The position numbers and the translations under genes are program-made. From IMG/VR virus record IMGVR_UViG_3300044904_000300, positions 62,001-126,000 of that record: a DNA stretch of 64,000 nt; one strand, given 5' to 3'. Numbering within the stretch: position 1 is the stretch's first letter; the number at the start of each line of letters is the position of its first letter. The notes beneath the pieces were generated by a model. The model saw only the letters and a program-made list of their open reading frames with translations, had not been told where the DNA came from and did no database searches. Positions 730-63,327 of the stretch are shown here, piece after piece. Source of the DNA: a virus.

Positions 730-3700
730 CACCACTCGCATCTTTCGGACCACATATTTCGATGACTACTATGCCCAGTCAAACACGGACCCCAACCTCT
801 TTCGGGGCGAGGACTTTGATTTTAACCGCATTCTATTTCGTCCGCGATACGCGGTCCAGTCCCGCGAACTGACCCAGCTTCAGACCATTCTTCAAGCACA
901 GATTGAGCAGCTTGGTTCAGCAAACCTCAAGCATGGGCAGCCGGTCTATGGATGCGAAATGGCGATCAATAACGGTGTCCGCGCTGGTAAAGTGCAGACA
1001 ACCGATAACGTCGCAGCGTTCTTTAGCCGCACGCTAGATGCGGGCCAGAAGATCGAGTCCGTCGATGTGCCGACGACCACCGCGTCGGTCCGAGGCTATG
1101 TGGCGATTGATGAGGGCTATACAGACAACTACTTGGTCTTCACGTATGGAAGTGATGCGGCATTCAACCCGAACGATGTAGTCAGCATTATCGGGGGCAC
1201 GGAGAGTGCGACGTTCTCTAGCGATAGTGACGCTTTTAGCGATGCGTCGGTGTTTAGCGTAGCAGGTGGTGTGTTCTTTATCTCCGGGTTCCTCGTGCGG
1301 TTCAAACCCGCAACTATCGTGCTCGACCATCAGTCTAGCGCCCCGGATGCGGTCGTGGGGCTGCTCGTTAGTGAAGAGATCCTTGATGAACTGGACGATG
1401 TAGTTGGGGAAACGCTCCTCGACCCAGCGAACCAGAATGCTCCAGGTGCTCACCGGTTCCGCTTGAGCTTGGCGCTCGCAAGTTATGGGTTAACAGTAGA
1501 GGTTCCCACAAACTTCATCCAGTTGGCTAAAGTGGTCAAAGGCGTCATCCAGTATACACAGACGGTTTCGGAACGCTACGTCAAGTGGTCGGAACTGAAT
1601 GACTTGCTCGCTCGGCGCACGTATGACGAGGCCGGGAACTACATGATCAAGTCGTTCTCACCGGTTATTGGTGATGACCCAGACGCAGAAGATCACTTCC
1701 GTCTCGCAGTCGGCGCGGGAAAGGCTTATGTTCACGGGTGGGAAGTCAATAAGACGACCCCGACAAACTTGTCTATCCGCAAGGGACGGACAACGCAGAA
1801 CGTGGATAGTCAGAGTATTGCGCTCCAGGTCGGAAACTATGTGCGAGTGCGTTGGGTTGGTGCGGCCGTTCCCGGCACGTATTTCTGTAACACCATCGCA
1901 GTAGATTTGCACACAGTCCCGTCGCAACAGATTGCCGGCGCAAATGACGCGACGTATGGCCTGTCCAAGATCGGAACGGCCAAACTCCGAATGCTGGAAG
2001 CCGAAGACATCCCGGCTCTTGCGGACTATCAAGCTAACTCCATTTTCAAGCTCTTCTTCTTTGACGCGCAGTTTGATACGGTCACAGGAAACTGCACATC
2101 GGGATCGATGGACTCGAATGGTGCGGTGTATGCGGCTATCGCCTTTGCGAACGGCGTGGCGAATGTTGGTAACGCACTCCTCGGGGCCAGCATCGTCCTC
2201 GGGGGCGCAAGTTCTCCGGTGTCGGGAAGCTTCACGGTCAACTCGTATGCCCTCACCAACGCCACACACGCAAACGTGGGTCTTCTCGAACCACTTCCCG
2301 CTATTCCTAACGGAAACACCACGTATCGCGTTCTTTACCAGACCAAGGATATCGACGCATTCGCCGCGCACGACAACACCGCGACGATCAACGCCTCGTC
2401 CTACCTGGCAAACAACTTTGCGTTCCAGGCAGACATCGACTGGGTAACAGGAAAAGTCGGTGGGTCTCCCTACGGTGCGACTATCGTTGAAGGGATGAGC
2501 CAAAACTCACTTATCTACGAGTTGTCCAACCAGTTCGTTGTCGCCAACACGCTGACAACTGCGACCTCATCGTTCGATTCGTGGGTGCCGACTGACGAAA
2601 ATGCTACGATGGACCCCGCAAGCGGATCGCCAACAGCGAACATTACCCTCACCTTTACGCTTGGCGCACAGTATAAGCTCCCCACCAGCGCCGCGATGAC
2701 CGCAGAAGAAGCCCAGCGGTACTTTGTATTCTATGATGTTACTGACGACGTGGACGGCCAGGGACAAATTATTGAGGTGTCGGACACAAGTGGTGCGGTA
2801 ACTTCCCGCTGGATTTCTAACGTGGCCGTGGTTGCATCGGGGTCGGACTACAACATCAACTTCAAGTATCATCATTCTTCATCGATGGGTGGTGTGCGGA
2901 CATTCTTGGGGTTTGCTCGGGCAGCAGTCACTGGGCTCGCAATCCGCACCAAAACGCTGAATGCAGGAAACACGACCAGTCTGTTCTCGGACACCACAGG
3001 CGCTGCAGTCGCGGGACAGGTTGAGTATTACTCGCTCAACACCGCACCGGGGTTTGCGTATTCCCTCTTTGTGCCCGACGTTTACCAGCTTGTCAAGGTG
3101 CTCTATAAAGAGAGCAATACAGCCTTTGACACTTCAGACCTTACGACCGCAACAGATGTTACCGACCAGTTTACGCTCGACACGGGACAGCGGGATAACA
3201 GCTATGAATACGGCCGGGCCATCGTCAATAACGGTGCGAGCTACGTGATCCACCCAACGGGACGCTTGCTCTTCATCTTTGACTGGTTTGAACCCGCGGG
3301 ACGAGGATACGCGACTGTTGATAGCTATGGGGATATCCTCTATGACGGCATCCCTTCATATACCTCAACGGTTACTGGAACTACTGTATCTCTGCGGGAC
3401 GTGCTGGACTTCCGACCAGAACGGTCCTACCAGAACATCCTCGCAAAGGCCAATACAGTCTTTGCAGCGGGAGACGATTACGGAGACCCTGCATATCTCA
3501 CATCAACCAGCGTCCCGTATTTGATCCCGGCCTCTGACGGCGTATGGAACGGAAGCTATCAGTTCTATCTCGGGCGAATGGACACCGTGGCGCTGTGCTA
3601 TGACGGAACATTCACGATCAACGAAGGACAAGATGCGGTCCACCCAGTTGCTCCAAAGGATGATAGTGCGGACCTTCCGCTCTTTTTGTTGACGATTCCA

Positions 3701-6700
3701 CCATATACTTTGGTGGATGCGAATGGCAAGCCAACAGGAGTCGGGCTCACTGCATACGACTACAAGCGTTACACGATGAACGACGTAGGCAAGATCGAGG
3801 ACCGTGTCGCGCATCTCGAATACTACACGGCGCTCAACTCGCTTGAAACCATCACTACGAACCAGCCCGAAGAAGATGCGGCGGGAAATCCACGCTACAA
3901 GAATGGGATTCTCGTGGACAGTTTCCAGGGTGGTGATGTAGGAGATGTGGCTTCACCAAACTTCACCGCGTCGATTGATAGTGCGAACTGTGAACTTCGC
4001 ACGGGGTTCCGTTCGTTTGCGCTCTCATTCTCACCAGACTTCGCGCACAGCACGACCGCGAATATCGCAATCATCGGGGATATGGCGACCATCGCCTACA
4101 CTACTACACCATTCGTGGTGCAGAACTTGGCGACCACCGCAATCTCCGTGAACCCGTTCGACATCTCAACATTCTATGGGAGCATATCACTCTCACCCGC
4201 GGTGGATACGTGGAAGGATACAGAACAGCTACCCGCCCAGGTGATCGACGGTGGTGGACCGACGCAAGCCTGGATAGACGCAAATATGCCGTCCTACACC
4301 GTGTGGGGTGAATGGGATCAAACTTGGTCGGGAGTCAACGCATCGACTGCTCCACGCACGTTTAGTGGATTCGCTAACGTTGTAGCCACACTACTCAACA
4401 TCGGGGGAGCGACCACCACATTCCAAGACACACAAGTCGCCGCAAATTTTGCTCGTCAGGGCACGACGTTTGAATACACCGTGACGACACAGAACGAATC
4501 GCAGGGCAACAAGGTCGTAGGCACGTCGATTGTGCATAGCGTTCGGGCGCGGGATCTTGTGTTCTCTGGCAGCGGGCTCAAACCCGACACCAACCTCTAC
4601 CTGTTCTTTGCGGGAACGAACATCAGTAACTATGTCCAGCAGGCGACGGTTCTTCAGCTTGAATCGATTGTCGCACCAGGAGGCGCTGCCGTATCACTAA
4701 CTGGCGCGCCATTCATCGTAGGACAGACTGTGTATGTGCAGAAAGCCATTACGGGATTAACCGCAACGACCTCCGCACAAGCAAACGTCGCGGGAACGGG
4801 AACCTATTATCAGTATGAGCTTTCGCCCGGACAGTTGGTGCACGTTGTTCGTGTAAACGATTCGTTCGATGCGTTCGTCAACAGTATCACTTCCAACACC
4901 GCGATGTCGTTGGTGACTTCGGCAAATGCCAGCTTCGCAAATGCGTATATCTACACTCGCACTCCCGTAACTATCGCCGCGGTATCGCCGTGGTATGACG
5001 GAACGGGGAACGTGGTGTATAACATCTCGGTTGTGCGGGCCAAGCGCGATACAGCAGTTGACCAAGCAGTTCCGTATGTTCCGGTTCCTGGTTCGTTGAG
5101 TATCACCAAATTGGTAAACGACGGAGCAAACACGACCTCGGGCGCGGTGCTCCTCACTCTACCGAATGGTATTTTTGGAACAAATGCCCTTGCGGGGTGG
5201 ACGATCACAGGCTCGCGATGCCCGTCGGGTGTTGTGCGGGGCTGGAACCCATCTTCCGGTCAGATTCGTCTCGATAACGATGCGGGTGTTGTTCCGTTGG
5301 GTACCGCTATTCGTATCGTCGGAGGTCCTGGTGCAGGACAACTCACCTATGCAGTGGGAGACTCGTATAGCGCCAACCAGACAGTCAACGTGGGATCGCT
5401 CACGGGAGTTGTCGCGGGAGAGTCGATTTATAGTATCGGGCCGCTCGCATCGGCTGGGTTTGGCGAGATTACATCAACATCACCTCGCGCAGGAACGTGT
5501 GCGGGTGCTTTCCATATGCAAGAAGCGCAGTTCCCCACAGGAACCAGCCAGGTGCGTCTCACCGACAGCGCAACAAATGGTGTAGATGGCACAACGCTTG
5601 CAGACGCCCAGTATGAGGCGTCGGGGTTGACGACCATTCAACAGGAAACGATCATCTCGACTCGTGTGATTACGCAATCGGAAATCGGCGTAACCGATAC
5701 GGCGGGAACCATCGGGGGCGGCGGAGGTGGAGCTTCTGGTCCTGGCGAGCCGGGATGGGGCGGCCGCGCAGGGTTGATCTACTCGGACCCGCTCGCGGAA
5801 ACCTTCTTGGTAGACAAGACCATCTATCCGCAGGGACTATTCCTCGCGGACTTGGACCTCTGCTTCGCAACGGTGCCCGACCAGGACATCCCGGTGACTA
5901 TTGAGATTCGCACCACCGTGAACGGCTACCCGAACAACCAGGAAGTTGTGCCGTGCATCTCCGCATCGGGCCGCGCAAGCGTGACCCTTCGTCGGGATCA
6001 GGTGAATACCACACAGGCGCCGAACTTTGACGACCCAACAGCTTACACGAAGATCACGTTCCCGTCTCTCGTCTACTTGGCACCAGGATACGAGTATGCT
6101 ATCGTCATCCGGTCAGACAGCGACCATTACTATGTGTGGACCGCAGAGATCGGAGCACTCGTCGTCGGCAGCGAAGATCGGAAGGTCTCGAAACAGCCGT
6201 ATGCGGGAAGCTTCTTCAAGTCACAGAACGCAAGCACCTGGACGGAATCGCCGTTGCAGGACTTGATGTTCCGCCTGAACAAAGCAGTATGGTCGGGGAC
6301 CTCCGCGACACCGCAGCAAGGGAAACTGGTGATCCGTGGCGTGCCGCCAAGCACCAATACCTGGTTTGATAGCTTTGAGTTCTACCCACATGATGCAAAC
6401 TTTGCCGACGTGACCGCGTGCGCGTATCTGTTGGACATTCAAGTAATGGACTTGACGTCGAATACAAGCAACGGAACGACGCTTCGTTATAGTGGGTTCC
6501 CAAATAGCTGGCAGGAAACGGGCGCTCGGTCATTCTTGCAGGGCTACGGGCCCACGACCACACAGCAGATTCCAAGTTGGTCGAATAACGTGCTGGGCAC
6601 CGCGAACACCATCGACGGACAAGCATTTCTCAATACGTGGAGCGCGGATGTCGCACCATATCTCGACTTGCAGAAGATGGGCGTGGTCTGCATCCAGCAC

Positions 6701-20697: not shown

Positions 20698-21218
20698 TAG
20701 ATGACACTTTGAATACTTTGTTGGGGATTGTTCCCGATGAAGCACTTTCCGACAATACGACACCCACAGACGACGCACTAGCGGTCGTTGATGCCCCCAG
20801 TTTGCCCAAAGTGCTCGAACGGGAACAAACGGCGATCACGGTCCAGTCGACCCCCGTGGACGAAAAACTCGATACGGACTTTGAGTTTGCCCGAGAGAAA
20901 ATGCGGGATCTCATCAAGAAGGGACAGGAAGCTGTCGATTCGGCTATTATGCTTGCGACAAGTGGCGATGCCCCCCGAGCCTATGAGGTGGTGGGGAACA
21001 TGATCGGCGTCATTATCGATGCGAACAAACAACTCATCGACATTCATAAAACGAAACGAGATACACAACAAGTTGGCGCCCCTACGGCCCGTGCAGACGG
21101 TTCTGGTGGCTCTGTGAATATAGACAAAGCAGTATTCGTCGGACGCGCATCTGACCTGCTTCGTGAAATCCGGGCGCTTGCCGCGTCCAAGGTAGATACT
21201 GATGCCGAGAAATCCTAA
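20694..21218 (+). CDS. gp16: Terminase small subunit gp16
   Basis: 174 residues (T4 gp16 is 164). It recognises DNA and regulates the large subunit during headful packaging. The central helical region with DFEFAREKMRDLIKKGQEAV and GDAPRAYEVVGNMIGVIID, followed by NKQLIDIHKTKRD, is the family's coiled-coil oligomerisation core. The N-terminus is acidic and unstructured. It overlaps gene 15 by four bases and gene 17 by 17 bases, the usual translational coupling. Confidence 0.93.
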   Translation: MIDDTLNTLLGIVPDEALSDNTTPTDDALAVVDAPSLPKVLEREQTAITVQSTPVDEKLDTDFEFAREKMRDLIKKGQEAVDSAIMLATSGDAPRAYEVVGNMIGVIIDANKQLIDIHKTKRDTQQVGAPTARADGSGGSVNIDKAVFVGRASDLLREIRALAASKVDTDAEKS

Positions 21219-22161
21219 CCCACAAGGATACAACGGGAACCCCCTACTCCCGCTGCCCAACGCACAGGTCGCCCTTTCCGCAGACGAACTCAAGGAATAC
21301 ATCGCCTGCTCTCAAGACCCTATTTACTTCATCGAACGCTATGTCAAGATCGTCCACGTAGACCGCGGAATCGTCAAGTTCGAATTGTATCCCTTCCAGC
21401 GGGAAATCGTTCAGGCCTTCGAGCACAACCGGTTCGTCATCTGTAAGCTCGCCCGGCAGTCGGGAAAGTCGACCGTCGTGGTCTGCGGATACTTCCTCTG
21501 GTACATCCTGTTTCATACAGATATCAGCGTCGGGTTACTCGCCAACAAAGAGGCGACCGCCATCGAACTGCTCCGTCGTTTGAAACAGAGTTTCGAACTG
21601 CTCCCCGATTTCTTGAAACAGGGCGTCGTCAAGTGGGACCAGAAGCTCATCATGCTCGCCAATAACTCTCGTGTGCGAGCGGAGAGCACCAGCGCGAGCG
21701 CGGTCCGAGGAGACACCTTCAACATTCTGTTCCTCGATGAATTTGCGTTCGTTCCCGAGAACATCGCTCTCGAATTCATGACCTCCGTGTATCCGACTAT
21801 CACATCAGGTAAGACGACGAAAATGTTCATCGTCTCAACCCCCGCGGGATACAACCTGTTCTATAAGATTTGGAATGATAGCGAAGAGGGACGGAACACC
21901 TATACGCGCATGGGCTTCACCTGGCGCGATGTCCCTGGCCGAACGGAAGTAGACGAAAACGGTGTCAACAAATGGGAGAAGGAAACTCGGCAGAATATCG
22001 GTGACATGCAGTTCGAACAAGAGTTTGAATCGGTTGTGGGGTCAACACTTGTCACCATTAGAGATAAGCAAAATGGAACCATTACCACACTACCAATAGT
22101 AAAACTTTATGCCACGTTGTATGATGAACAACTTGGAGACATTCAATTACCGGGTTACTAG
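21202..22161 (+). CDS. gp17: Terminase large subunit gp17, ATPase half fused to an IntN split-intein fragment
   Basis: 319 residues. Residues 1-276 are the packaging ATPase of gp17: Walker A ARQSGKST at 84-91, Walker B ILFLDE ending at D179-E180, and a coupling motif VSTPAG. At residue 277 (base 22030) homology to terminase stops and a 43-residue segment begins SVVGSTLVTIRDKQNGT, which has the block-A pattern of an intein N-terminus with Ser at position 1; it ends at a stop after QLPGY. The matching intein C-half is encoded at 22641, ending SHN before Cys. Joining at E276 and that Cys gives EFE-CSFMGS, the normal terminase sequence. Nuclease activity requires trans-splicing to the second protein. 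Confidence 0.93.
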   Translation: MPRNPNPQGYNGNPLLPLPNAQVALSADELKEYIACSQDPIYFIERYVKIVHVDRGIVKFELYPFQREIVQAFEHNRFVICKLARQSGKSTVVVCGYFLWYILFHTDISVGLLANKEATAIELLRRLKQSFELLPDFLKQGVVKWDQKLIMLANNSRVRAESTSASAVRGDTFNILFLDEFAFVPENIALEFMTSVYPTITSGKTTKMFIVSTPAGYNLFYKIWNDSEEGRNTYTRMGFTWRDVPGRTEVDENGVNKWEKETRQNIGDMQFEQEFESVVGSTLVTIRDKQNGTITTLPIVKLYATLYDEQLGDIQLPGY

Positions 22162-22171
22162 TCTTTGAATG

Positions 22172-22178
22172 CTAAATA
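22172..22178 (+). promoter_or_regulatory. Late promoter of the inserted endonuclease (CTAAATA)
   Basis: CTAAATA with five bases to ATG 22184, so the predicted +1 is the start codon. Confidence 0.7.
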
Positions 22179-22183
22179 GAGGT

Positions 22184-22669
22184 ATGGTAGAAAAAACTTA
22201 CCTCATTTACAAGTTAACTCGGGATGACGGAATGCTTTACATTGGCACAACGGATTCAACCCGATTTAAGAATCGAATGTGCCAACATCGAGGTACCTCC
22301 CGGTTTGTTGGTCATACATTTTCAACAGAGATACTTGCTGAAAATGCAGAAATTGCTATTCTATTACAAGAAGCAGACTTTATAACACAATACAACACAC
22401 TTTCTCCATTTGGGCTCAACCTCACAAAAAGTGGTAAAGGAAGCGGGCACGATTCTCTACATTTTACTACACGGGGATACAAGTTTAGTGAAGAAAGCCG
22501 AAAAAGGATGAGCGAATCTGCTAAACGCCGATGCAAGACCAATCCCCGTTTGGGTTGGTCGCACAGTGAAGAAACAAAAACTCACTGGAGCAAACGACGA
22601 AAGGGCATTCACGCTCGGGCACTTAAAGGAAAAACTATCGATGAGTTTTGTTCTCAATCGACATTATGA
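22184..22669 (+). CDS. GIY-YIG homing endonuclease inside terL
   Basis: 161 residues. The GIY-YIG domain is at the N-terminus: YLIYKLTRDDGMLYIGTTD, followed by FKNRMCQHRGTSRFVGHTF and the Glu-containing ILLQEADFITQYN. A short NUMOD3-like segment (KFSEESRKRMSESAKRR) follows, then a basic tail. ATG 22184 is preferred over 22169 because of the domain start and the late promoter spacing. Its last 29 bases overlap the IntC-terminase gene, which favours coupled expression of the downstream half. Its likely target is an intact terL allele. Confidence 0.88.
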   Translation: MVEKTYLIYKLTRDDGMLYIGTTDSTRFKNRMCQHRGTSRFVGHTFSTEILAENAEIAILLQEADFITQYNTLSPFGLNLTKSGKGSGHDSLHFTTRGYKFSEESRKRMSESAKRRCKTNPRLGWSHSEETKTHWSKRRKGIHARALKGKTIDEFCSQSTL

Positions 22670-23843
22670 AATTTTAACTCCGGATGGATTCCGGTCTTTT
22701 GTTGGATTACACTGTATTCAACAATCGACTATTAGTGTATTTACCCGAAGTGGTCGTATTCTTACTGGTAGTGCCAAGCATCGCATCTTAACTCCCAATG
22801 GATTCACAATTCTTGGTAACCTTATAGTTGGTGATTATGTTCAAACTCTGTTCGGCCTCGATTGTGTTGAGCGTCTTACATCTTATGAAGAAATAACAAA
22901 TCTATACGACCCCATTGATGTTGACCATCCAGAACAGGCGTTTTATACTGATGAAATTATTTCACACAATTGTTCATTCATGGGGTCTGCGAACACGCTG
23001 ATTCCCGCGCACAAGCTCGCGATGCTGGGCTACAAGGAACCTATTGAGACGAGGGGCGACCTCAAAATCTATACCCGTCCAGTCAAGGCGACAGACGAAG
23101 GGCCCTCGCACGTCTATCAGATCACCGTGGATATCGGAATGGGACAGGGCTTGGATTACTCGGTCATCAACGTCACAGACATTTCCGAGAACCCATTTCG
23201 GCAAGTGGCGATCTGGCGAAACAACTCGCTTTCCGCTACGATGCTCGCACCCATCATTCGGGACATCGGGCAGTATTACAATAATGCGTTTGTCATGATG
23301 GAAATTAACCTTGAGGGACATGCAGTTGCCGAAATGCTCCATAACGAGCTTGAGTATCCGGGGGTCATGACGGTAACTCCACACCCCAAGAAGGGACAGC
23401 ATCTCTCGGGGGGTTTTGGGCTGAAGTCCCGCTTTGGCTTGAAGATGTCGGAAGCCACCAAGCGCATCGGGTGTTCCGGGCTCAAGACACTTTTTGAGCA
23501 GGATAAGTATATCGTTAATGACTATCAGACGCTCCGCGAACTGACAACCTTTGTGGTCCATAACAAGACCTATCAGGCAGAAGTCGGAAACCACGATGAT
23601 ATTGTCATGACCTTGGTGCTCCTGGGTTGGCTCACGCTTCAGCTTCGTTACGAGGATTACGTGGGTCTCTCGATGCGAAAGCTGCTCATGGACCGAGGCG
23701 AAACGCTAACATTCGATACTCCCGCACTTGGACACATGGGCGACTTGGAGCAAACGCCTGTTGTCGGACTGACGCAAGGGGGAATTGAGATCATCGATGA
23801 CCCGGATTTCTGGAGAGAACAAGAGGACACTTCGTGGTTATAA
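22641..23843 (+). CDS. gp17: IntC split-intein fragment fused to gp17 nuclease half
   Basis: 400 residues from ATG 22641, chosen because it is preceded by AAAGGA at about ten bases and just precedes the intein fold. Residues 1-110 are IntC: HYEILTPDGFRSFVG, the TxxH-like block GSAKHRILT, GNLIVGDYV, and the C-terminal block YTDEIISHN. Residue 111 is Cys, starting CSFMGSANTLIPAHKL, the conserved terminase sequence after the splice point. The rest is the RNase-H-like packaging nuclease with acidic residues in VDIGMGQGLDYSV, MMEINLEGHAV and NHDDIVMT. A terminator follows directly at 23849. Confidence 0.92.
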   Translation: MSFVLNRHYEILTPDGFRSFVGLHCIQQSTISVFTRSGRILTGSAKHRILTPNGFTILGNLIVGDYVQTLFGLDCVERLTSYEEITNLYDPIDVDHPEQAFYTDEIISHNCSFMGSANTLIPAHKLAMLGYKEPIETRGDLKIYTRPVKATDEGPSHVYQITVDIGMGQGLDYSVINVTDISENPFRQVAIWRNNSLSATMLAPIIRDIGQYYNNAFVMMEINLEGHAVAEMLHNELEYPGVMTVTPHPKKGQHLSGGFGLKSRFGLKMSEATKRIGCSGLKTLFEQDKYIVNDYQTLRELTTFVVHNKTYQAEVGNHDDIVMTLVLLGWLTLQLRYEDYVGLSMRKLLMDRGETLTFDTPALGHMGDLEQTPVVGLTQGGIEIIDDPDFWREQEDTSWL

Positions 23844-40197: not shown

Positions 40198-41523
40198 ATG
40201 AGTGATCTGACCATACAGCCTGTAGATGAAGTTTGGGTGACTGTTGCTTGTGACGATGCTATCGCGCACGAACTGTCCGACTACTTCACATTCAAGCCCG
40301 ACAACGTAGTTTTCATGAAACGCCAAGCCCGCTATCGGGGCTGGGACGGATCGGTGCGTCTGTTCAAACTCAAGGACCATCGCATCTATCGGGGTTTGGT
40401 TCCTCGTCTCATCGAGTTCACAGACCAGCATAGCTACTCTGTTGATGCACAACTCCCCGAAGTGTTCCCGTTCCTACCCGACGACGCGCTCGATGGCTGG
40501 CTGGACTGGATGACTGACCAAGGCTATGCTCCACATCCCATCAGGGACTATCAAAAAGCTGCACTTCGGTCTGCGCTCGACTCACAGCGAGGCATCATCG
40601 TGTCGCCTACAGGGTCGGGGAAGTCCTACATCATTTGGCTGCTCACGCAGGCTATCTCTGTCCCGCAGACCTTGATCATCGTCCCGACAACGGGGCTGGT
40701 CGCACAGATGCACACGGACTTCCAAAGCTACGGATGCGATCCAACTCAAATCCAAACTATCCAAAGTGGCATGTCTAAAAGTCCAAATGCCCCATTAGTG
40801 ATATCCACGTGGCAGAGCATTTATGACTTGCCCGCCAGTTATTTTCGCCAATTCGGGTGCGTCATCTGCGACGAAGTTCATCTTGCAAAAGCCAAGTCTC
40901 TTACCGGGCTCATGGAAAAGTGCGATCATGTCGGTTACCGATTTGGATTTACGGGAACACTTACAGACACACAAGTTCATCGCTTGATCCTCGAAGGGCT
41001 TTTCGGGAGTGTGACGCAGGTCACGACCACGAATGCGTTAGTCAGGGCCGAACAATTGGCTCCCATTCATGTAGACATGTGTGTTCTCAAGTATCCCGAA
41101 TCTGTCTGCAAACAAGTTCGGCATTTCACCTATCAGGAAGAGGTTGACTTCCTTGTGTCCTCACCCGCCAGGATGGCCTGTGTCGCACAACTTGTATCCA
41201 AGCTCAAGGGTAATACTCTTGTGCTGTTCAACCTTATCGATAAACATGGGAGACAGCTATATGAGCAAATTGAGAAACTTTGCCCGGAAAAACACGTCCA
41301 TTTCGTCGTCGGCTCGGTGGACTCCGTGGAGAGAGAAGAAGTTCGGCAGTCAGTGGAGGCAGACGACATCCAAACAACCATACATTTTGGCGACCGGTCT
41401 ACTACTCTTAGTGGGGATGGGTTTGTACGCTTATCAGACGGAACGCAGAAAACGGCAGATACGATAACTGAAAACGACGATGTTGATGACGCCTGGATAT
41501 CACTAAATACGAGTAATAAATAA
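40198..41523 (+). CDS. uvsW: UvsW helicase, N-terminal fragment with foreign extension
   Basis: 441 residues. Up to about residue 390 this is UvsW (T4: 503), an SF2 helicase that drives branch migration and fork regression. It has the N-terminal DNA-binding domain, Walker A SPTGSGKSY, VICDEVHLAKA (motif II), FGFTGTL (motif III) and, near the break, FVVGSVDSVEREEVRQSVE. After base 41368 similarity ends, and 52 residues follow (GDRSTTLSGDGFVRLSDG, QKTADTITENDDVDDAW) that are not UvsW. The pattern resembles the first block of Hint/intein domains, but no first-residue Cys is evident. Motifs V and VI are encoded separately at 42151, so this protein alone should not be an active helicase. Confidence 0.88.
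   Translation: MSDLTIQPVDEVWVTVACDDAIAHELSDYFTFKPDNVVFMKRQARYRGWDGSVRLFKLKDHRIYRGLVPRLIEFTDQHSYSVDAQLPEVFPFLPDDALDGWLDWMTDQGYAPHPIRDYQKAALRSALDSQRGIIVSPTGSGKSYIIWLLTQAISVPQTLIIVPTTGLVAQMHTDFQSYGCDPTQIQTIQSGMSKSPNAPLVISTWQSIYDLPASYFRQFGCVICDEVHLAKAKSLTGLMEKCDHVGYRFGFTGTLTDTQVHRLILEGLFGSVTQVTTTNALVRAEQLAPIHVDMCVLKYPESVCKQVRHFTYQEEVDFLVSSPARMACVAQLVSKLKGNTLVLFNLIDKHGRQLYEQIEKLCPEKHVHFVVGSVDSVEREEVRQSVEADDIQTTIHFGDRSTTLSGDGFVRLSDGTQKTADTITENDDVDDAWISLNTSNK
41503..41509 (+). promoter_or_regulatory. Late promoter near the HNH gene in uvsW (CTAAATA)
   Basis: CTAAATACGAGTA is identical over 13 bases to the functional-looking promoter at 36889. A second TAAATA lies at 41517-41522. The distance to ATG 41544 is 34 bases. 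Confidence 0.55.
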
Positions 41524-41543: not shown

Positions 41544-42191
41544 ATGGATTATCAGAAACACTACCACACTCTCTGTAGTCGTGCTCCTAAAACTCGACCG
41601 GTAGCGGGATACTATGAACGACATCGTATTTTACCGGGGTGCTTGGGCGGGAAATATACGACAGAAAATGTTGCCTGGCTCACTCCAGAAGAACATTATG
41701 TCGCCCATCAAATCTTGGTAAAACTCCATCCAAGTGACAAAAAACTCATATATGCAGCATATCTCATGACGATTCATGACACTGATGCGCGTTCACCCAA
41801 CAAACTCTATGGATGGGTTCGTCGGTCAATGGCACAAATCACCAGTACCCGAATGCGAGGTGAGTGGAGCCTTAACCGGGATAAAATGCTGGCAGGAGTT
41901 CGTCGTAACCACATTTCAAAAGAAGACAGTGCCCAATATGCAAAAGAGTCGTGGACGAGAGATACCGGTCACCGGCGCGACCAGATACGAACGCTTCAAC
42001 GAGAAACCAATGCAACGACGGCTCAGAGGAACCGTGAACTCTGGCAAACCCCCGAATATCAAGAACGAATGACATGCCGGCGGCGTGGTTCCAATAGTCA
42101 ATCAATGAAGGCTCTCTGGGCGAATCCCATACGGAAACAACAAATGCTGGATGCACGAAATGAAACCATCAAAAATCGAACGCGCACATAA
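41544..42191 (+). CDS. HNH homing endonuclease inside uvsW
   Basis: 215 residues. The N-terminal HNH domain is YYERHRILPGCLGGKYTTEN followed by VAWLTPEEHYVAHQILVKL, the standard phage HNH arrangement with His-His, Asn and His. The C-terminal half carries repeated helix motifs (KESWTRDTGHRRDQI, RELWQTPEYQERM, KALWANPIRKQQM) of the DNA-binding type seen in Mob and Seg proteins. Its last 41 bases overlap the second uvsW fragment. Its presumed target is the intact uvsW gene. Confidence 0.87.
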   Translation: MDYQKHYHTLCSRAPKTRPVAGYYERHRILPGCLGGKYTTENVAWLTPEEHYVAHQILVKLHPSDKKLIYAAYLMTIHDTDARSPNKLYGWVRRSMAQITSTRMRGEWSLNRDKMLAGVRRNHISKEDSAQYAKESWTRDTGHRRDQIRTLQRETNATTAQRNRELWQTPEYQERMTCRRRGSNSQSMKALWANPIRKQQMLDARNETIKNRTRT

Positions 42192-42561
42192 AGACGCAAT
42201 AATCGTAGCTTCGTACGGCGTGTTCTCAACGGGGGTGAACATTCGTCGGCTTCACAATTTGGTCTTTGCGGCAGCGGGAAAATCGAAAATCCGCACACTT
42301 CAGAGCATAGGCCGGGGATTGCGGACTCATGCGTCGAAAAGCCATATCACCTTGTATGACGTAGTGGACGACCTTCGAGTCGGGGTGCGACGAAATTATG
42401 CTTGGAAACATGCCGAATTGCGGAGTGTCCTGTATGCGGAAGAAAAGTTCCCGGTGACGATACGCGCCATCGACTTGAGCAAGTTTGTTTTGAAGACGGC
42501 GCCAAGCGTCCTGGCTTCCCCTAGGCTTGACGATGATAGTGTGGGACAGGAAACTAACTAG
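42151..42561 (+). CDS. uvsW: UvsW helicase, C-terminal fragment
   Basis: 136 residues starting at ATG 42151 (ATG 42163 is an alternative). It contains helicase motif V (IIVASYGVFSTGVNI) and motif VI (IRTLQSIGRGLR), then the T4-like end with a V-DDLR segment, YAEEKFPV and a C-terminal tail. It starts within the HNH gene, so it probably depends on translation through that gene. Whether it pairs with the N-terminal fragment as a two-subunit helicase is unknown; nothing in it resembles an intein C-half. Confidence 0.85.
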   Translation: MHEMKPSKIERAHKDAIIVASYGVFSTGVNIRRLHNLVFAAAGKSKIRTLQSIGRGLRTHASKSHITLYDVVDDLRVGVRRNYAWKHAELRSVLYAEEKFPVTIRAIDLSKFVLKTAPSVLASPRLDDDSVGQETN

Positions 42562-43758: not shown

Positions 43759-44295
43759 TTGGCAAAGACTCCTACCCATTACGTTGATAACGCTCGCTTC
43801 TTGGCTGAGATCAAAGCCTATCGAGCTGCGTGCATAAAGGCGAAACGCACCAAAACTCCCTCACCACAGATACCGGAATACATCGGTAAGTGCTTTCTGG
43901 ATATTGCGACTCACCTCAGTTACAAGCCGAACTTCGTGGCCTACACCTACCGAGAGGACATGATTTCGGATGGGATCGAGAACTGCCTGGTCTACTTCCA
44001 CAACTTTGATCCCGACAAGTCGAGCAATCCCTTTGGATACTTTACCCAAATCATTTACTATGCGTTCATTCGCCGGATTCAAAAGGAACGCAAGCACACC
44101 TATATCAAGTATAAGTGCTTGGAGCAGTCGGTGATTGATGGTGGAGCGCATACAGATTCGCCAAATGGCGCACATATCCCCGCTGACACGACGATGTTGG
44201 AGTTTGATAATGTGAAAGACTTCATCCGCCGGTTTGATGATTACACCGCTGGACGAAAAGAGCGCAGGAAACAGGCGAAAGTCGAAAAAGCATGA
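43759..44295 (+). CDS. gp55: Late-transcription sigma factor gp55
   Basis: 178 residues (T4 gp55 is 185). It replaces the host sigma in RNA polymerase and reads TATAAATA promoters. The diagnostic region is DMISDGIENCLVYFHNFDPD, followed by SSNPFGYFTQIIYYAFIRRI then QKERKH, the sigma region 2-like core. It starts at TTG 43759, seven bases after AAAGGA; an ATG at 43754 is out of frame. Transcription from a host-type promoter allows expression before late genes. The 3' end overlaps the methyltransferase start by four bases. Confidence 0.93.
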   Translation: MAKTPTHYVDNARFLAEIKAYRAACIKAKRTKTPSPQIPEYIGKCFLDIATHLSYKPNFVAYTYREDMISDGIENCLVYFHNFDPDKSSNPFGYFTQIIYYAFIRRIQKERKHTYIKYKCLEQSVIDGGAHTDSPNGAHIPADTTMLEFDNVKDFIRRFDDYTAGRKERRKQAKVEKA

Positions 44296-46478
44296 ATGTA
44301 ATGTTGAAACAAGGTGATTGCCGCACCCTCTTGAAAGAACTTCCGGAGAACAGCGTTGATAGCGTGGTGACAGACCCACCGTATGAACTATCGAATGACG
44401 GAAAGGCAAGCGCCAGTCGGGTCTTCCTTGAAATGATGTTCCCACAAAATGCGAATATCAAAACCGAGTTGTCTGGCGAGGACTATCTTTCGTTCCTCGT
44501 ACAGAAGGTTCTTTGTTTGAGTGGTATCACTGGGTTCCCAACTCCAGCGACCACCGTGCCAATAAGTTCCATGACATTCAATGGCAAGTCGCCGTTGGGG
44601 AATAAGGATGTCGAACACGCAAGCATAAGTGCCGTCGGTGTTTCGGATGGGGAAACTAGTGTTGATATCGGCCCCGAGGGAACGGAATACCTCGGCTGCT
44701 TTATGTTCAAACTTGCTAACACGACTGCCGCACTCCAAGCGTTGAATAGCATTGGCACGGGCTTTGATGCGGGCGGCATCGGGGTAGGGTTTGGTATTAC
44801 GACGACGAGTTACCCAGGCTTTCTTCATAGCCTCACTTCGGTTGATATCGGAGACCATAACATAGGGTCGTTCAACAATGCGTTTTCTCAACTGATAAGC
44901 ACATTTGGCCGAGCAGAATATTTGTCCGTGCCGCGCTTTAGTGCCGGCGGGGGAACGGTAGAACATTTCTCCACATACGGGGCATTGGTATTGCTTGCCC
45001 TTCTCAAGCAAACCGGCTCGCAAGTGGTAAGAACATTGGCGGGAACACGTCGTTTGCCGGCCATGTTTGAGCCTCGTCATATTTGCGTAGTAGATGATAT
45101 CACAAACAGGGCAGTGTCGTTCGACATCATTGTTCATAACCAGTATTTAGCATCCACTGGGTTTATGTCTAAAGGCTGGGACGGCTCCAAAATCGCCTAT
45201 GATGTCTTGATGTGGGCAGAGGTGCTCCGAGTGCTCAAACCGGGCGGACACATGCTCGCTTTTGGGGGCACTCGCACACATCATCGGATGACCTGTGCGA
45301 TAGAAGATGCGGGGTTTGAAATACGAGATGAACTGGACTGGATCTATGCGTCCGGGTTCCCCAAGTCTCTGAATGTCTCAAAGGTCATCGATAAGCAAGC
45401 GGGACATACCCGCGCATCATCCTCTGTGCCGAACATGAAGAACAAGGTGTATGGCAAAGGTATGGGCGGGGGTGAATGGAATGCGCCGAGCGAACCTGCT
45501 GTGACTGACGCAGCCAAGCAGTGGGAGGGGTGGGGCACAGCACTCAAACCAGCACGAGAGCCCATCGTCCTCGCACGAAAGCCTATGAGTGTTTCTATTG
45601 CGAAGAACATACAGGAACATGGGACGGGTGCGATCAACATCGATGCGACTCGTATTGGTGGGAACCCGGGATACAAATATGCTGCGGACCGCAACGGGAC
45701 GACCTTTCATGGAGAACAGGGCGAACGAATCAAGCAGACAGCGGAGAAAAAGGGCTCGGAGTTTATTGAATCCTCAAAGGGACGCTGGCCCGCAAATGTG
45801 CTGCTCTCACATTCACCTGATTGTGTGTGCGTTGGATCGCATGTTGAACCTGGCTATGTCATCAATCGGTGGGACGATGGCTCGAAACCCTTTGGAGACG
45901 GCGCGGGGCATCCATTTACATCGGAGCAACAGCCTGATGAGGTCATCGAAGAATGGCGTTGCACACCAGACTGCCCGGTGCGTCAGTTGAACGAACAGAG
46001 CGGTGACCGGCCAGGTTTTGTATCTAATGGAAACGCTACAGTTGGTGAAACGTCTGATGGTGTCACTCCGTTTCGCCGCGGAACGGGTGGTATATGGCAT
46101 GAAGGAAATGGTATCCCTTGTGGGCCGCAATATAGTGATAACGGCGGAGCAGCGCGGTTCTTCTACGTCGCTAAGCCCTCTAGAGCAGAGCGAGAGGCCG
46201 GATGCGAACACTTGCCGGTCAAGACCACACCAGAGACCGTGGGACGGGACCCCAATAGTGCTGGAGTACGCAGCCCCCGTGCAGGTGCTGGGCGCGGAGC
46301 CGGCACACCACTCTTGCGTTGTACCGTGTGTGGATGCGACGGAGGCGGAGGACGTTATGTGTCGCAGTGTGTGGACGGGGGTTCGCATCGTTTTGAAGCG
46401 GCAACTTATGTGATGAAACCAGATACACCACCAGAAATAGTGGCACAAATACAAGCACTATTAGGGCAAACTCTCTAA
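44292..46478 (+). CDS. Beta-class DNA methyltransferase, disrupted N-terminal portion
   Basis: 728 codons. It opens with motif IV (SVVTDPPYEL, residues 24-33) and after an insertion of 256 codons continues GFMSKGWDG and VLRVLKPGGHMLAFGGTRTH, the standard sequence of beta-class N4/N6 methyltransferases in phages. The target-recognition region follows (RFFYVAKPSRAEREAGCEHL, CTVCGCDG). The enzyme's motif I (DPFMGSGTT) is not in this frame but at 47320 beyond a second insertion. The frame remains open through the antisense endonuclease at 44388-45137, so the product would carry a 256-residue insert inside motif IV and lack the SAM site. Activity is unlikely unless some splicing occurs. Confidence 0.8.
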   Translation: MNVMLKQGDCRTLLKELPENSVDSVVTDPPYELSNDGKASASRVFLEMMFPQNANIKTELSGEDYLSFLVQKVLCLSGITGFPTPATTVPISSMTFNGKSPLGNKDVEHASISAVGVSDGETSVDIGPEGTEYLGCFMFKLANTTAALQALNSIGTGFDAGGIGVGFGITTTSYPGFLHSLTSVDIGDHNIGSFNNAFSQLISTFGRAEYLSVPRFSAGGGTVEHFSTYGALVLLALLKQTGSQVVRTLAGTRRLPAMFEPRHICVVDDITNRAVSFDIIVHNQYLASTGFMSKGWDGSKIAYDVLMWAEVLRVLKPGGHMLAFGGTRTHHRMTCAIEDAGFEIRDELDWIYASGFPKSLNVSKVIDKQAGHTRASSSVPNMKNKVYGKGMGGGEWNAPSEPAVTDAAKQWEGWGTALKPAREPIVLARKPMSVSIAKNIQEHGTGAINIDATRIGGNPGYKYAADRNGTTFHGEQGERIKQTAEKKGSEFIESSKGRWPANVLLSHSPDCVCVGSHVEPGYVINRWDDGSKPFGDGAGHPFTSEQQPDEVIEEWRCTPDCPVRQLNEQSGDRPGFVSNGNATVGETSDGVTPFRRGTGGIWHEGNGIPCGPQYSDNGGAARFFYVAKPSRAEREAGCEHLPVKTTPETVGRDPNSAGVRSPRAGAGRGAGTPLLRCTVCGCDGGGGRYVSQCVDGGSHRFEAATYVMKPDTPPEIVAQIQALLGQTL
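44388..45137 (-). CDS. Antisense Vsr-like homing endonuclease inside the methyltransferase
   Basis: 249 residues on the minus strand. The N-terminal part has two Cys clusters (CPVCDIIYYANMTR...C-R-C and CPVCGEMFYRSPAG...C-AKC). The C-terminal part is a Vsr/EDxHD-type nuclease: SKFEHKAAEVFRSLG, FDILIPQRRLAIECHG, TYWHGGRW and LGFDIRILWEHH. Its stop TAG is the complement of the Leu codon in YEL of the methyltransferase, and its late promoter (minus TAAATA at 45149-45144) is six bases upstream of the ATG, also inside the insertion. The insertion is therefore little more than promoter plus gene. The same endonuclease family occurs at 46495. Confidence 0.85.
   Translation of the reverse strand: MNNDVERHCPVCDIIYYANMTRLKHGRQTTCSRQCSYHLRAGLLEKGKQYQCPVCGEMFYRSPAGTKARHGQIFCSAKCAYQLRKRIVERPYVMVSDINRSEAMKKAWVTRRRNTKPYPDAARIKARANAIQRLECGSRVSKFEHKAAEVFRSLGADINTSFPIRNTDGTYACVFDILIPQRRLAIECHGTYWHGGRWSWEPSDTTQTKNLLYEERKIVLARQLGFDIRILWEHHFKEDPTGACLSVIR
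44391..45158 (-). mobile_element. 768-bp antisense endonuclease insertion in motif IV
   Basis: The insertion separates YEL from GFM of the DPPY motif. It is exactly 256 codons long and contains no stop in the host frame. There is no space for an intron core, and no Cys/Ser-initiated intein segment is seen on the host strand. Confidence 0.75.
45144..45150 (-). promoter_or_regulatory. Antisense late promoter (CTAAATA)
   Basis: Minus-strand CTAAATA, six bases before the endonuclease ATG at 45137. Confidence 0.7.
46391..46401 (+). repeat. 11-bp direct repeat, left copy
   Basis: TTTTGAAGCGG. The right copy is at 47209-47219. Together they bracket the second endonuclease insertion in the methyltransferase; both copies encode Phe-Glu-Ala in the ancestral frame. 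Confidence 0.8.
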
Positions 46479-60825: not shown

Positions 60826-63327
60826 ATGAAGTCGAGCACTGCTCAAGTCACTAGTATGTTGGATCTGTTCAACGATTCGAAGCGTGCGGTGGCGAACCTG
60901 ATGGCGCGTGAAAACATCACCGTCCAGGTGATTGACGGGCTCGACACCGCGAAGTTCTCGCCGGAACTTCGAATCCTTCAAGTGCCGAATTGGACCGGTC
61001 TGACCGTGGAGCAGTGCGACCTTCTGATGTCGCATGAAATCGGTCACGGGCTCTTTACTTCGCGTACCGCCGGCAAGGGTCTGAAGCCTGGACTGTTCTC
61101 GTACCTGAACATCATCGAAGATGCTCGCATCGAGCGCCGCATGAAGGGCGCGTTCCCTGGTCTCGCCCCGACGTTCTTCAAGGGCTATCGCGAATTTCAC
61201 ACCAACGGCCCGATCCTGAAGGGGACCAACACTGCGTTGATCAACCCCAAGACCGGTGAACAGGTCGCGATTGCTTCCATGAAGCTCATCGACCGTATCA
61301 ACCTCCACTATAAGATCGGCGCGTTCGCGACGGTCCCGTTTACCGCCGAAGAGCGTGTGTGGCTGTCGCGCATCGATAAGGCGACCTCGACTGAGGATTG
61401 CCTGACTATCGCCCGCGAGCTGCACAAACTCGCGAAGGAACGGGACACGAAGGAACAACAGCAGAACCCCTCGAACCAGCCGAACCCCTCGAAGGGGCCC
61501 AAGCAGGAAGAGACCGAAGAGTCGGATTCGGATAACTCGCAGGACCAGGACGCCAGCGATGGTGAGAGCCAGGACGGCGACGAAGACGAATCGGACGACC
61601 AGAACGGTGCGGGCGACACGTCGGACGAAGAAGACGAAGACGAAAAAGACGGCGAAGGCGCTGGCGACGAGGACGAAGACGAAAAAGACGCCGATGGTGG
61701 AAACTCTGCCGACGGCGAATCTGACGAAAACGACGAAGACGAATCGGACGAAGCCAAGAGCAAGAGCGATGGCGACAACCCGCATGGTCAGGACCAGCAG
61801 AAGGACGCGTCGAACGCGGCCGGTGCTAACGATGACCCGAGTGCGGATACTGACGACCAGACGCAGGAAGGGCTGAAGAACATCGCCGCGAAAGCGGGTA
61901 CGAGTGTTGTGCAACATCTTCTCTATCCGGTGCTCAACGATGAGGTCATGAAGGATCGAATCGTTATGGCGCGCGATTTCGCTGAAAAAGCGCACAAAAC
62001 CCTCGCCGCGAATGGCGTAGCCGCGTCGGAACTTGAGGCGCTCGAAGGCATTTGGAATGATCAGTTTCTTATGACCGCGAAGCATATGGCGCTGGAGTTC
62101 GAACGCCGTAAGAATGCCAAGTGCCTCGCGAACGTCAAGACCGCGAAGTCGGGGAAGCTCGACCTGACGAAGCTCTCGCAGTATCGCTGGACCGAGGACC
62201 TCTTCAAGCGTTCCATGACCGTGCCGAACGGCAAGTCGCATGGCATCGTCATGATGATCGACGGTTCGGGCAGTATGTCGTCGCAGTTCGCTGCCGTCAT
62301 CGACCAGACGCTGCTCTTCGCGGTGTTCGCCTTCCAGGTGAATATCCCGTTTGAAGCTTACATGTTCTCGGACGCTGCTGCGCAGGATGCGAATGGTAAC
62401 CCCATCCGCTTCTCGTTTGTGTCGCAGGGGCTGAATACGTTCACACTCGGCGAGTCGGGCCGCCTGATTGGCCTCGTGAATACGACCACGGACCGTGCGG
62501 GTTTCAAGCGCCAGATTCGTGCGCTGCTTGCTGTGAAGACCGCGTATGACCGCAAAGCTAACGTGTCGCAGGAACTGTCGGGCGCTGTCCATCAGATTCC
62601 CGATGCGGCGCTGTGCGGCACGCCGTTGTTTACGGGCATGATGATTGCCGAGCGTATTGTCGCCCGCATGAAAAATCAGCAGAAGCTCGATAAGACGACC
62701 TTCATCGTCATCACCGATGGCGAGGACACGAACCGCCTGTGGTTCAAGACGAACACGCCTGACCCGTATGCGTATGCACGCCGCGCTGGTTACACCAGCC
62801 TCGACAGCCCGTTCGTCGTGCGCGATGCAGTCACGAAGAAGAATCTCTCGTTCGTGCAGACCGACACGTATTATGGTGCGACCATGCCGCAGAACGGGGT
62901 GCTGACTATGCTCCTCGACGTCATGAAGCTTCGCCATGATACGCGCACCGTGTATATCTACATGCAGGAAGATCGCAGCCAGTATTACTACTCGTGGCAG
63001 AAGCCCAAGCGCGTGACGTATCGGACCGATGGGTTCGACTATCTCATCCGTGCGGGGAAGCAGGAAGCTGCGAAGAGGATCGAGCCGACGACGATCACCG
63101 AGGCGCTCCGCGCTGATGGTCAGTATGTGCTGCCGTCGGACATCGCTGTGGCGGACCTCGCGATCATCCTGCCTGTGGGTAGCGTGACGCTGACGGAAGA
63201 CGAATTCAAGAAGCTCGATACTGCCGACCTCACGCAGAAGAAGATCGCTGCGGAGTTCACCAAGAGCATGGTGAAGGCACAAGCGAATCGCAAGTTCGTC
63301 AACAGCGTGGTGCCTCACCTCGCGTAA
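60826..63327 (+). CDS. CobT-like protein: HExxH peptidase-like domain plus VWA domain
   Basis: 833 residues. The N-terminal domain has a gluzincin-type motif LLMSHEIGHGLFTS (H70, E71, H74) and a downstream NIIEDARIERRMKG with the expected third ligand. Residues about 215-345 are an extreme Asp/Glu/Ser linker. The C-terminal half is a von Willebrand A domain with MIDAS DGSGSMSS near residue 477 and ITDGEDTNR further on. This architecture matches CobT-like cobaltochelatase subunits and related VWA proteins that pair with AAA+ (CobS/MoxR) ATPases; CobS is common in cyanomyoviruses. Predicted role: metal-dependent or chaperone-like remodelling, with an ATPase partner outside the window. The transcript is leaderless by prediction. 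Confidence 0.85.
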   Translation: MKSSTAQVTSMLDLFNDSKRAVANLMARENITVQVIDGLDTAKFSPELRILQVPNWTGLTVEQCDLLMSHEIGHGLFTSRTAGKGLKPGLFSYLNIIEDARIERRMKGAFPGLAPTFFKGYREFHTNGPILKGTNTALINPKTGEQVAIASMKLIDRINLHYKIGAFATVPFTAEERVWLSRIDKATSTEDCLTIARELHKLAKERDTKEQQQNPSNQPNPSKGPKQEETEESDSDNSQDQDASDGESQDGDEDESDDQNGAGDTSDEEDEDEKDGEGAGDEDEDEKDADGGNSADGESDENDEDESDEAKSKSDGDNPHGQDQQKDASNAAGANDDPSADTDDQTQEGLKNIAAKAGTSVVQHLLYPVLNDEVMKDRIVMARDFAEKAHKTLAANGVAASELEALEGIWNDQFLMTAKHMALEFERRKNAKCLANVKTAKSGKLDLTKLSQYRWTEDLFKRSMTVPNGKSHGIVMMIDGSGSMSSQFAAVIDQTLLFAVFAFQVNIPFEAYMFSDAAAQDANGNPIRFSFVSQGLNTFTLGESGRLIGLVNTTTDRAGFKRQIRALLAVKTAYDRKANVSQELSGAVHQIPDAALCGTPLFTGMMIAERIVARMKNQQKLDKTTFIVITDGEDTNRLWFKTNTPDPYAYARRAGYTSLDSPFVVRDAVTKKNLSFVQTDTYYGATMPQNGVLTMLLDVMKLRHDTRTVYIYMQEDRSQYYYSWQKPKRVTYRTDGFDYLIRAGKQEAAKRIEPTTITEALRADGQYVLPSDIAVADLAIILPVGSVTLTEDEFKKLDTADLTQKKIAAEFTKSMVKAQANRKFVNSVVPHLA

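Follow-up and report, generated by a model that had tools for sequence, protein, structure and literature searches.

The large terminase subunit gene (terL) of an uncultivated T4-like phage is divided into two genes, an arrangement very probably explained by an atypically split intein and a homing endonuclease gene (HEG) of the GIY-YIG family that lies between the halves. The phage is represented by a single metagenomic record, IMGVR_UViG_3300044904_000300, of 135,821 bases, and the window analysed here is the 64,000-nucleotide stretch from base 62001 to base 126000; positions are those of the window, and all features of the terL locus are on the plus strand. terL occupies two open reading frames (ORFs), 21202–22161 and 22641–23843, in different frames, with the endonuclease ORF between them in the third frame, as a first-pass annotation had proposed. 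The upstream ORF encodes a 276-residue N-extein with the ATPase domain (21202–22029; Pfam Terminase_6N, E=1.7e-18) that is 90% identical to an intact relative (contig L002) and carries the motifs ARQSGKS (Walker A), LDEF and STPAG. It reads FEQEFE and then continues with SVVGSTLVTIRDKQNGTITTLPIVKLYATLYDEQLGDIQLPGY to a stop codon at 22159–22161. This 43-residue tail, the N-terminal intein part (IntN, 22030–22158), begins with the catalytic serine (Ser1), includes a block-A-like segment, SVVGSTLVTIRD, and is without counterpart in intact relatives. The downstream ORF starts with the ATG at 22641 and has an extension of 110 residues, the C-terminal intein part (IntC, 22641–22970), ending in ISHN; the next residue is the cysteine (Cys+1) of CSFMGS, where the C-extein begins (22971–23843; Pfam Terminase_6C, 6.4e-13; 84–90% identical to intact relatives). 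This half is the RNase H-like nuclease domain and retains the conserved acidic residues, so that between them the two halves contain both domains of a T4-type TerL (gp17) with their catalytic motifs.

The insertion point can be compared directly with an empty site. Three viral contigs (L002–L004), whose TerL is 84–90% identical to that of the window, encode an uninterrupted protein without the extra residues, and the junction reads FEQEFECSFMGS; taking out the 43 and 110 residues thus restores TerL exactly to the residue, as had been predicted (EFE-CSFMGS), at a site within the phage terminase. Both halves were compared with L002 and show a nonsynonymous substitution rate (dN) of about 0.07 and a synonymous rate (dS) above 1, a rate not above that of intact gene pairs. 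Both are under strong purifying selection, and this pattern, together with the catalytic motifs that are kept, argues against a dead terL. Base composition sets the insertion apart from its surroundings, with a GC content of 0.38–0.42 across the cassette (0.40 for IntN alone) versus 0.53 in the TerL exteins, as expected of an imported element. In two of the contigs with an intein-less terL, a HEG with HNH and NUMOD3 domains lies directly 5' of the gene (L002, 3569–4183; L003, 3455–4180), and there is none at this position in the window phage; HEGs seem to compete for terL as a hot spot.

The identification of the intein is best anchored in its C-terminal part. A profile made from the IntC regions of 17 other phages, with the window left out, recovers the window IntC at E=1.9e-21 as the sole six-frame match. 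IntC also aligns with CatC (PDB 6dsl_B; E=0.0015, 30% identity over about 100 residues), and the RtcB_rel_intein model matches it at 5e-5. T13, G16, H47, H109 and N110 are invariant in the alignment of these regions, and conservation extends to a block-B-like SAKH, a YD pair and the HN at the end; the segment is thus homologous to TerL IntCs and has the block B histidine, the penultimate histidine and the terminal asparagine. The lengths of 43 and 110 residues fall within the ranges for atypically split TerL inteins (25–45 for IntN and 100–115 for IntC). We looked at IntC His24 as a candidate for the NX-motif histidine of Ser1 inteins; it has no preceding arginine or lysine and does not align confidently, and we make no claim for it. 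Because Ser1, SAKH, HN and Cys+1 are all present, the empty site is exact and the IntC profile match is strong, we read the interruption of terL as a split intein. All 17 other IntNs examined have cysteine at position 1.

The endonuclease between the halves has 161 residues and is predicted to start at 22184 (22184–22669), in preference to an alternative start at 22169. It matches a group I intron endonuclease model (TIGR01453, 1e-9), NUMOD3 (5.5e-5), with two NUMOD3-like motifs, and the homing endonuclease family phrog_314 (3.1e-18). The GIY-YIG catalytic residues Y9, Y19-I-G21 and R27 are invariant among close relatives, and the glutamate, within QEADFITQ, is at the expected place. Just upstream lies CTAAATA (22172–22178), which we take to resemble the T4 late promoter and which is spaced for a transcript start at the ATG of the HEG. 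The window has 14 copies of CTAAATA compared with 3.3 expected; of 29 TAAATA sites, 7 have an ATG exactly 11 nucleotides past the start of the motif (corrected P about 1.5e-5), and the whole record has 12 instances of TAAATA-N5-ATG versus none for a reversed control. These counts support the earlier prediction of a leaderless, late-promoted HEG. The genes behind the TAAATA-N5-ATG sites comprise five homing endonucleases and structural genes, and since the latter are included, this phage probably uses leaderless late promoters generally and not for this HEG in particular.

The same endonuclease lineage is found at the same TerL site in other phages. A search of viral contigs with IntC alone recovered no relative; searching them with the HEG did recover sister cassettes. 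The closest relatives in IMG/VR, about 44% identical, are in contig L033 and in contigs L034–L036, which share one arrangement. In all four the HEG is upstream of a split-TerL IntC, and it is behind an IntN at the same site wherever the contig includes the upstream half. The free HEGs of both sister types are preceded by a TAAATA late-promoter-like motif (TATAAATA in L033 and AATAAATA in L034). Among 50,697 phage records, matches to the HEG occur in 10 Vibrio records, all within the terminase gene, and the same Vibrio TerL loci come first when the L034 HEG is used as the query; in the three that were examined (Vibrio phages VP-1, 1.244.A and K469) the endonuclease is fused in frame to IntN. 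Different, unrelated nucleases fill this kind of gap in phages HY03, Va1 and PX29. By sequence comparison, such gaps have repeatedly been filled by HEGs from different families, either fused to one or the other half or free-standing, and one HEG lineage has kept to this TerL site long enough to reach about 30–45% identity. A tree of the endonucleases firmly separates the PX29/PSTRCR lineage, and nothing beyond that: it does not resolve the position of the window's enzyme among those of the TerL site.

Further intein arrangements were noticed in other loci. L034 has a second intein at the TerL Walker A site, with an HNH/NUMOD3 HEG inside it in another frame and the intein frame open throughout (801–2960 and 1195–1992). 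In TerL of Vibrio phage VP-1 (L009) the HEG-IntN fusion belongs to a split intein, and a further, uninterrupted intein lies near Walker A. The annotated terL1 of Campylobacter phage CP81 (L015) opens immediately with IntC, and no ATPase half lies next to it; the two halves may be far apart in that genome. In Salicola phage SCTP-2 (L018) a RecA/UvsX-like recombinase (2686–4656) has two inteins, the first of which matches the TerL IntC query.

Building on what can be read from the sequences, namely gene order, the exact empty site, intein homology, the family and site association of the HEG, and purifying selection on the exteins, we infer trans-splicing, homing and promoter use as follows. terL would have been invaded between codons 276 and 277 by a class 1 intein, atypically split as in GOS-TerL and AceL-TerL, together with a GIY-YIG endonuclease. 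Two precursors would be made, the ATPase half with the 43-residue IntN and the nuclease half with the 110-residue IntC, and the intein parts would associate into a Hint fold. Ser1 would attack the upstream peptide bond by an N-O acyl shift, the ester would pass to Cys+1, and Asn110 would cyclise, aided by His109, ligating FEQEFE to CSFMGS as full-length TerL. Head filling, it is reasonable to suppose, would then depend on splicing. The endonuclease would be expressed from a late, leaderless promoter of its own. In co-infecting relatives it would cut terL alleles that lack the intein, close to the insertion point, and repair would copy in the whole cassette, with the intein masking the disruption of an essential gene. 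Transcription of the IntC-nuclease half would start at this internal late promoter as well as at the operon promoter, which should add to the amount of its transcript.

An alternative explanation is that the two halves assemble non-covalently, as in NrdA split by mobE (PMC3322345), and that the intein fragments are inactive relics that aid association. Some catalytic details, such as the combination of Ser1 with Cys+1, are chemically demanding, which favours this reading; however, all the residues expected for splicing are kept, removal of the extra residues is exact, and GOS-TerL splices with the same Ser1/Cys+1 pair, and we think the explanation improbable. It is also conceivable that the insertion simply disrupted terL, either in a defective phage or through an assembly artefact, and the dependence on one metagenomic record and a HEG shorter than its relatives are in keeping with this. 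The strong purifying selection on both halves, the intact intein motifs, and the recurrence of the layout in contigs L033–L036 and in cultured phages nevertheless make a broken gene very improbable. Joining of the halves at the level of RNA, by a group I or II intron or by frameshifting, is hardly credible even though introns are known in phage terL (ICP1, PMC10448857) and the HEG matches a group I intron endonuclease model: the additions to the two halves are Hint-like protein, not non-coding sequence, and an Rfam search of the window gave no match and hence no support for an intron.

A different kind of alternative is compatible with splicing and competes only with the homing part of the account, namely that the endonuclease inserted later and independently into an existing split intein, has another target and is unrelated to intein mobility. 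The unrelated nucleases in the gaps of HY03, Va1 and PX29 could be explained in this way, as could the missing C-terminal region of the HEG, but divergent phages share one HEG lineage at this TerL site, whether free-standing or joined to IntN, and we regard an independent insertion as unlikely, although less readily dismissed than the explanations above.

Several observations weigh against the split-intein and homing account itself. IntN by itself has no significant database match: a first profile of eight IntN sequences was non-significant in the window (E=9), and although the window IntN, with its Ser1 and VGSTLVTI, ranks first in the window with a profile of the 17 other IntNs, the match is weak (E=0.28). 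However, when the 43-residue tail was shuffled 20,000 times, no shuffled version reached the observed score of 12.1. The profile search that the first-pass annotation had suggested for the intein segments therefore gave a significant result for IntC, and for IntN a value that is weak but above all shuffles; the assignment of IntN is supported by its position and the shuffle test and not by database significance. The AlphaFold model of IntC alone has low confidence (predicted local distance difference test score, pLDDT, of 45) and is too poor to support the fold. A Foldseek search with the HEG model gives GIY-YIG proteins (1ywl, Slx1), with non-significant E values only. The HEG also ends about 50 residues before its counterparts in L033, L034 and VP-1, and we found no remnant of the lost region downstream or nearby. 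This C-terminal region is a trait of the nearest kin of the HEG rather than of the whole GIY-YIG family. It may bind DNA, and its absence means that homing could be lost; homing by the window HEG may be dead, and active homing is uncertain.

Other genes in the window are interrupted too. The gene for a UvsW-like helicase is divided, with an HNH-like HEG (MDYQKHYHTL...) lying between the two parts (40198–41523, 41544–42191 and 42151–42561), and there is a CTAAATA at 41503. The N half of the helicase has an unexplained tail of 35–45 residues and no IntC is visible at the locus; this may be a split gene that lacks an intein. A DNA methylase ORF (44292–46478, plus strand) contains an insert of about 250 residues in which the sense frame is open throughout, and antisense to the insert, on the minus strand, is a Vsr-like homing endonuclease (44388–45137) with its own CTAAATA.

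The locus puts the rare Ser1/Cys+1 splicing chemistry into a genome context, with an exact empty site for comparison, and contributes a candidate split intein whose N part has 43 residues. Taken with the other loci compared here, it documents a single endonuclease lineage that keeps to one TerL site, joined to IntN in some phages and free-standing in others. The finding of both states at a single site opens the transition from an intein with an internal endonuclease to a split intein with a free-standing one to phylogenetic testing. The first-pass annotation held that the step from an intein with an endonuclease to a fractured gene could be seen here; it cannot be seen in the window alone, and becomes visible only when loci with free and fused HEGs are compared. 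Our broader proposal, that the window has the second natural Ser1/Cys+1 intein in a long-lived cassette (IntN, late promoter, GIY-YIG gene and IntC) kept at one TerL site in divergent phages while the endonuclease switches between fused and free states, is tentative, with chances that we put slightly below even. If it is true, one could work out in what order gene fracturing proceeded, and expression of one terminase half would be uncoupled from that of the other by the internal late promoter.

Dassa et al. (2009; NAR 37:2560) reportedly named the class of fractured genes that have a free HEG. The window resembles them, by the definition given in citing papers, in having split intein halves and a free HEG between the gene halves; its three ORFs are in three frames, and the HEG lies between halves that carry the split intein parts. 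AceL-TerL and GOS-TerL (PMC11766414) had already established split TerL inteins whose IntN is short. GOS-TerL, a natural TerL split intein with Ser1 and Cys+1 that was characterised by Bachmann and Mootz and splices (PMC11766414, PMC10189870), is like the window in being a phage TerL intein with a short IntN and a long IntC (37 and 115 residues, compared with 43 and 110 here), Ser1 and Cys+1. The likeness is drawn from published descriptions, and what sets the window apart is that its genomic surroundings are known and include a GIY-YIG gene between the two halves. The Ser1/Cys+1 combination had been flagged as possibly unusual for this group: it is already present in GOS-TerL, which was nonetheless called the only Ser1/Cys+1 intein in 2023 (PMC10189870), and from its sequence the window intein is probably the second natural example. 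AceL-TerL and the consensus Cat-TerL (PDB 6dsl) are similarly split near the N terminus, but have Cys1 and an IntN of 25–30 residues.

The view that such inteins are rare was not supported, and their description as mainly metagenomic is out of date. IntC gives tblastn matches in 96 of 50,697 phage records, so such inteins are not limited to metagenomes, and the same arrangement is annotated in Aeromonas phage PX29 and found in several cultured phages; the window is a further case of a known kind. PX29 (gp17A/gp17B, GU396103) has an annotated split gp17 with an N-intein, a GIY-YIG and a C-intein at nearly the same TerL position, but its endonuclease is fused to IntC and of a different GIY-YIG lineage, and its intein has Cys1. 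Providencia phage PSTRCR_127, Escherichia phage HY03, Yersinia phage phiR1-RT and Pseudomonas phage PspYZU05 share with the window the order of three genes, TerL-N/IntN, endonuclease and IntC/TerL-C. All four have Cys1; PSTRCR_127 has a free copy of the second (PX29) GIY-YIG lineage, whereas in the other three the insertion is about 95 residues earlier in TerL and the nuclease is unrelated. Vibrio phages VP-1, 1.244.A and K469 have the same TerL site and the same HEG lineage as the window (28–38% identical), and differ from it in the in-frame fusion of the endonuclease to IntN and in Cys1.
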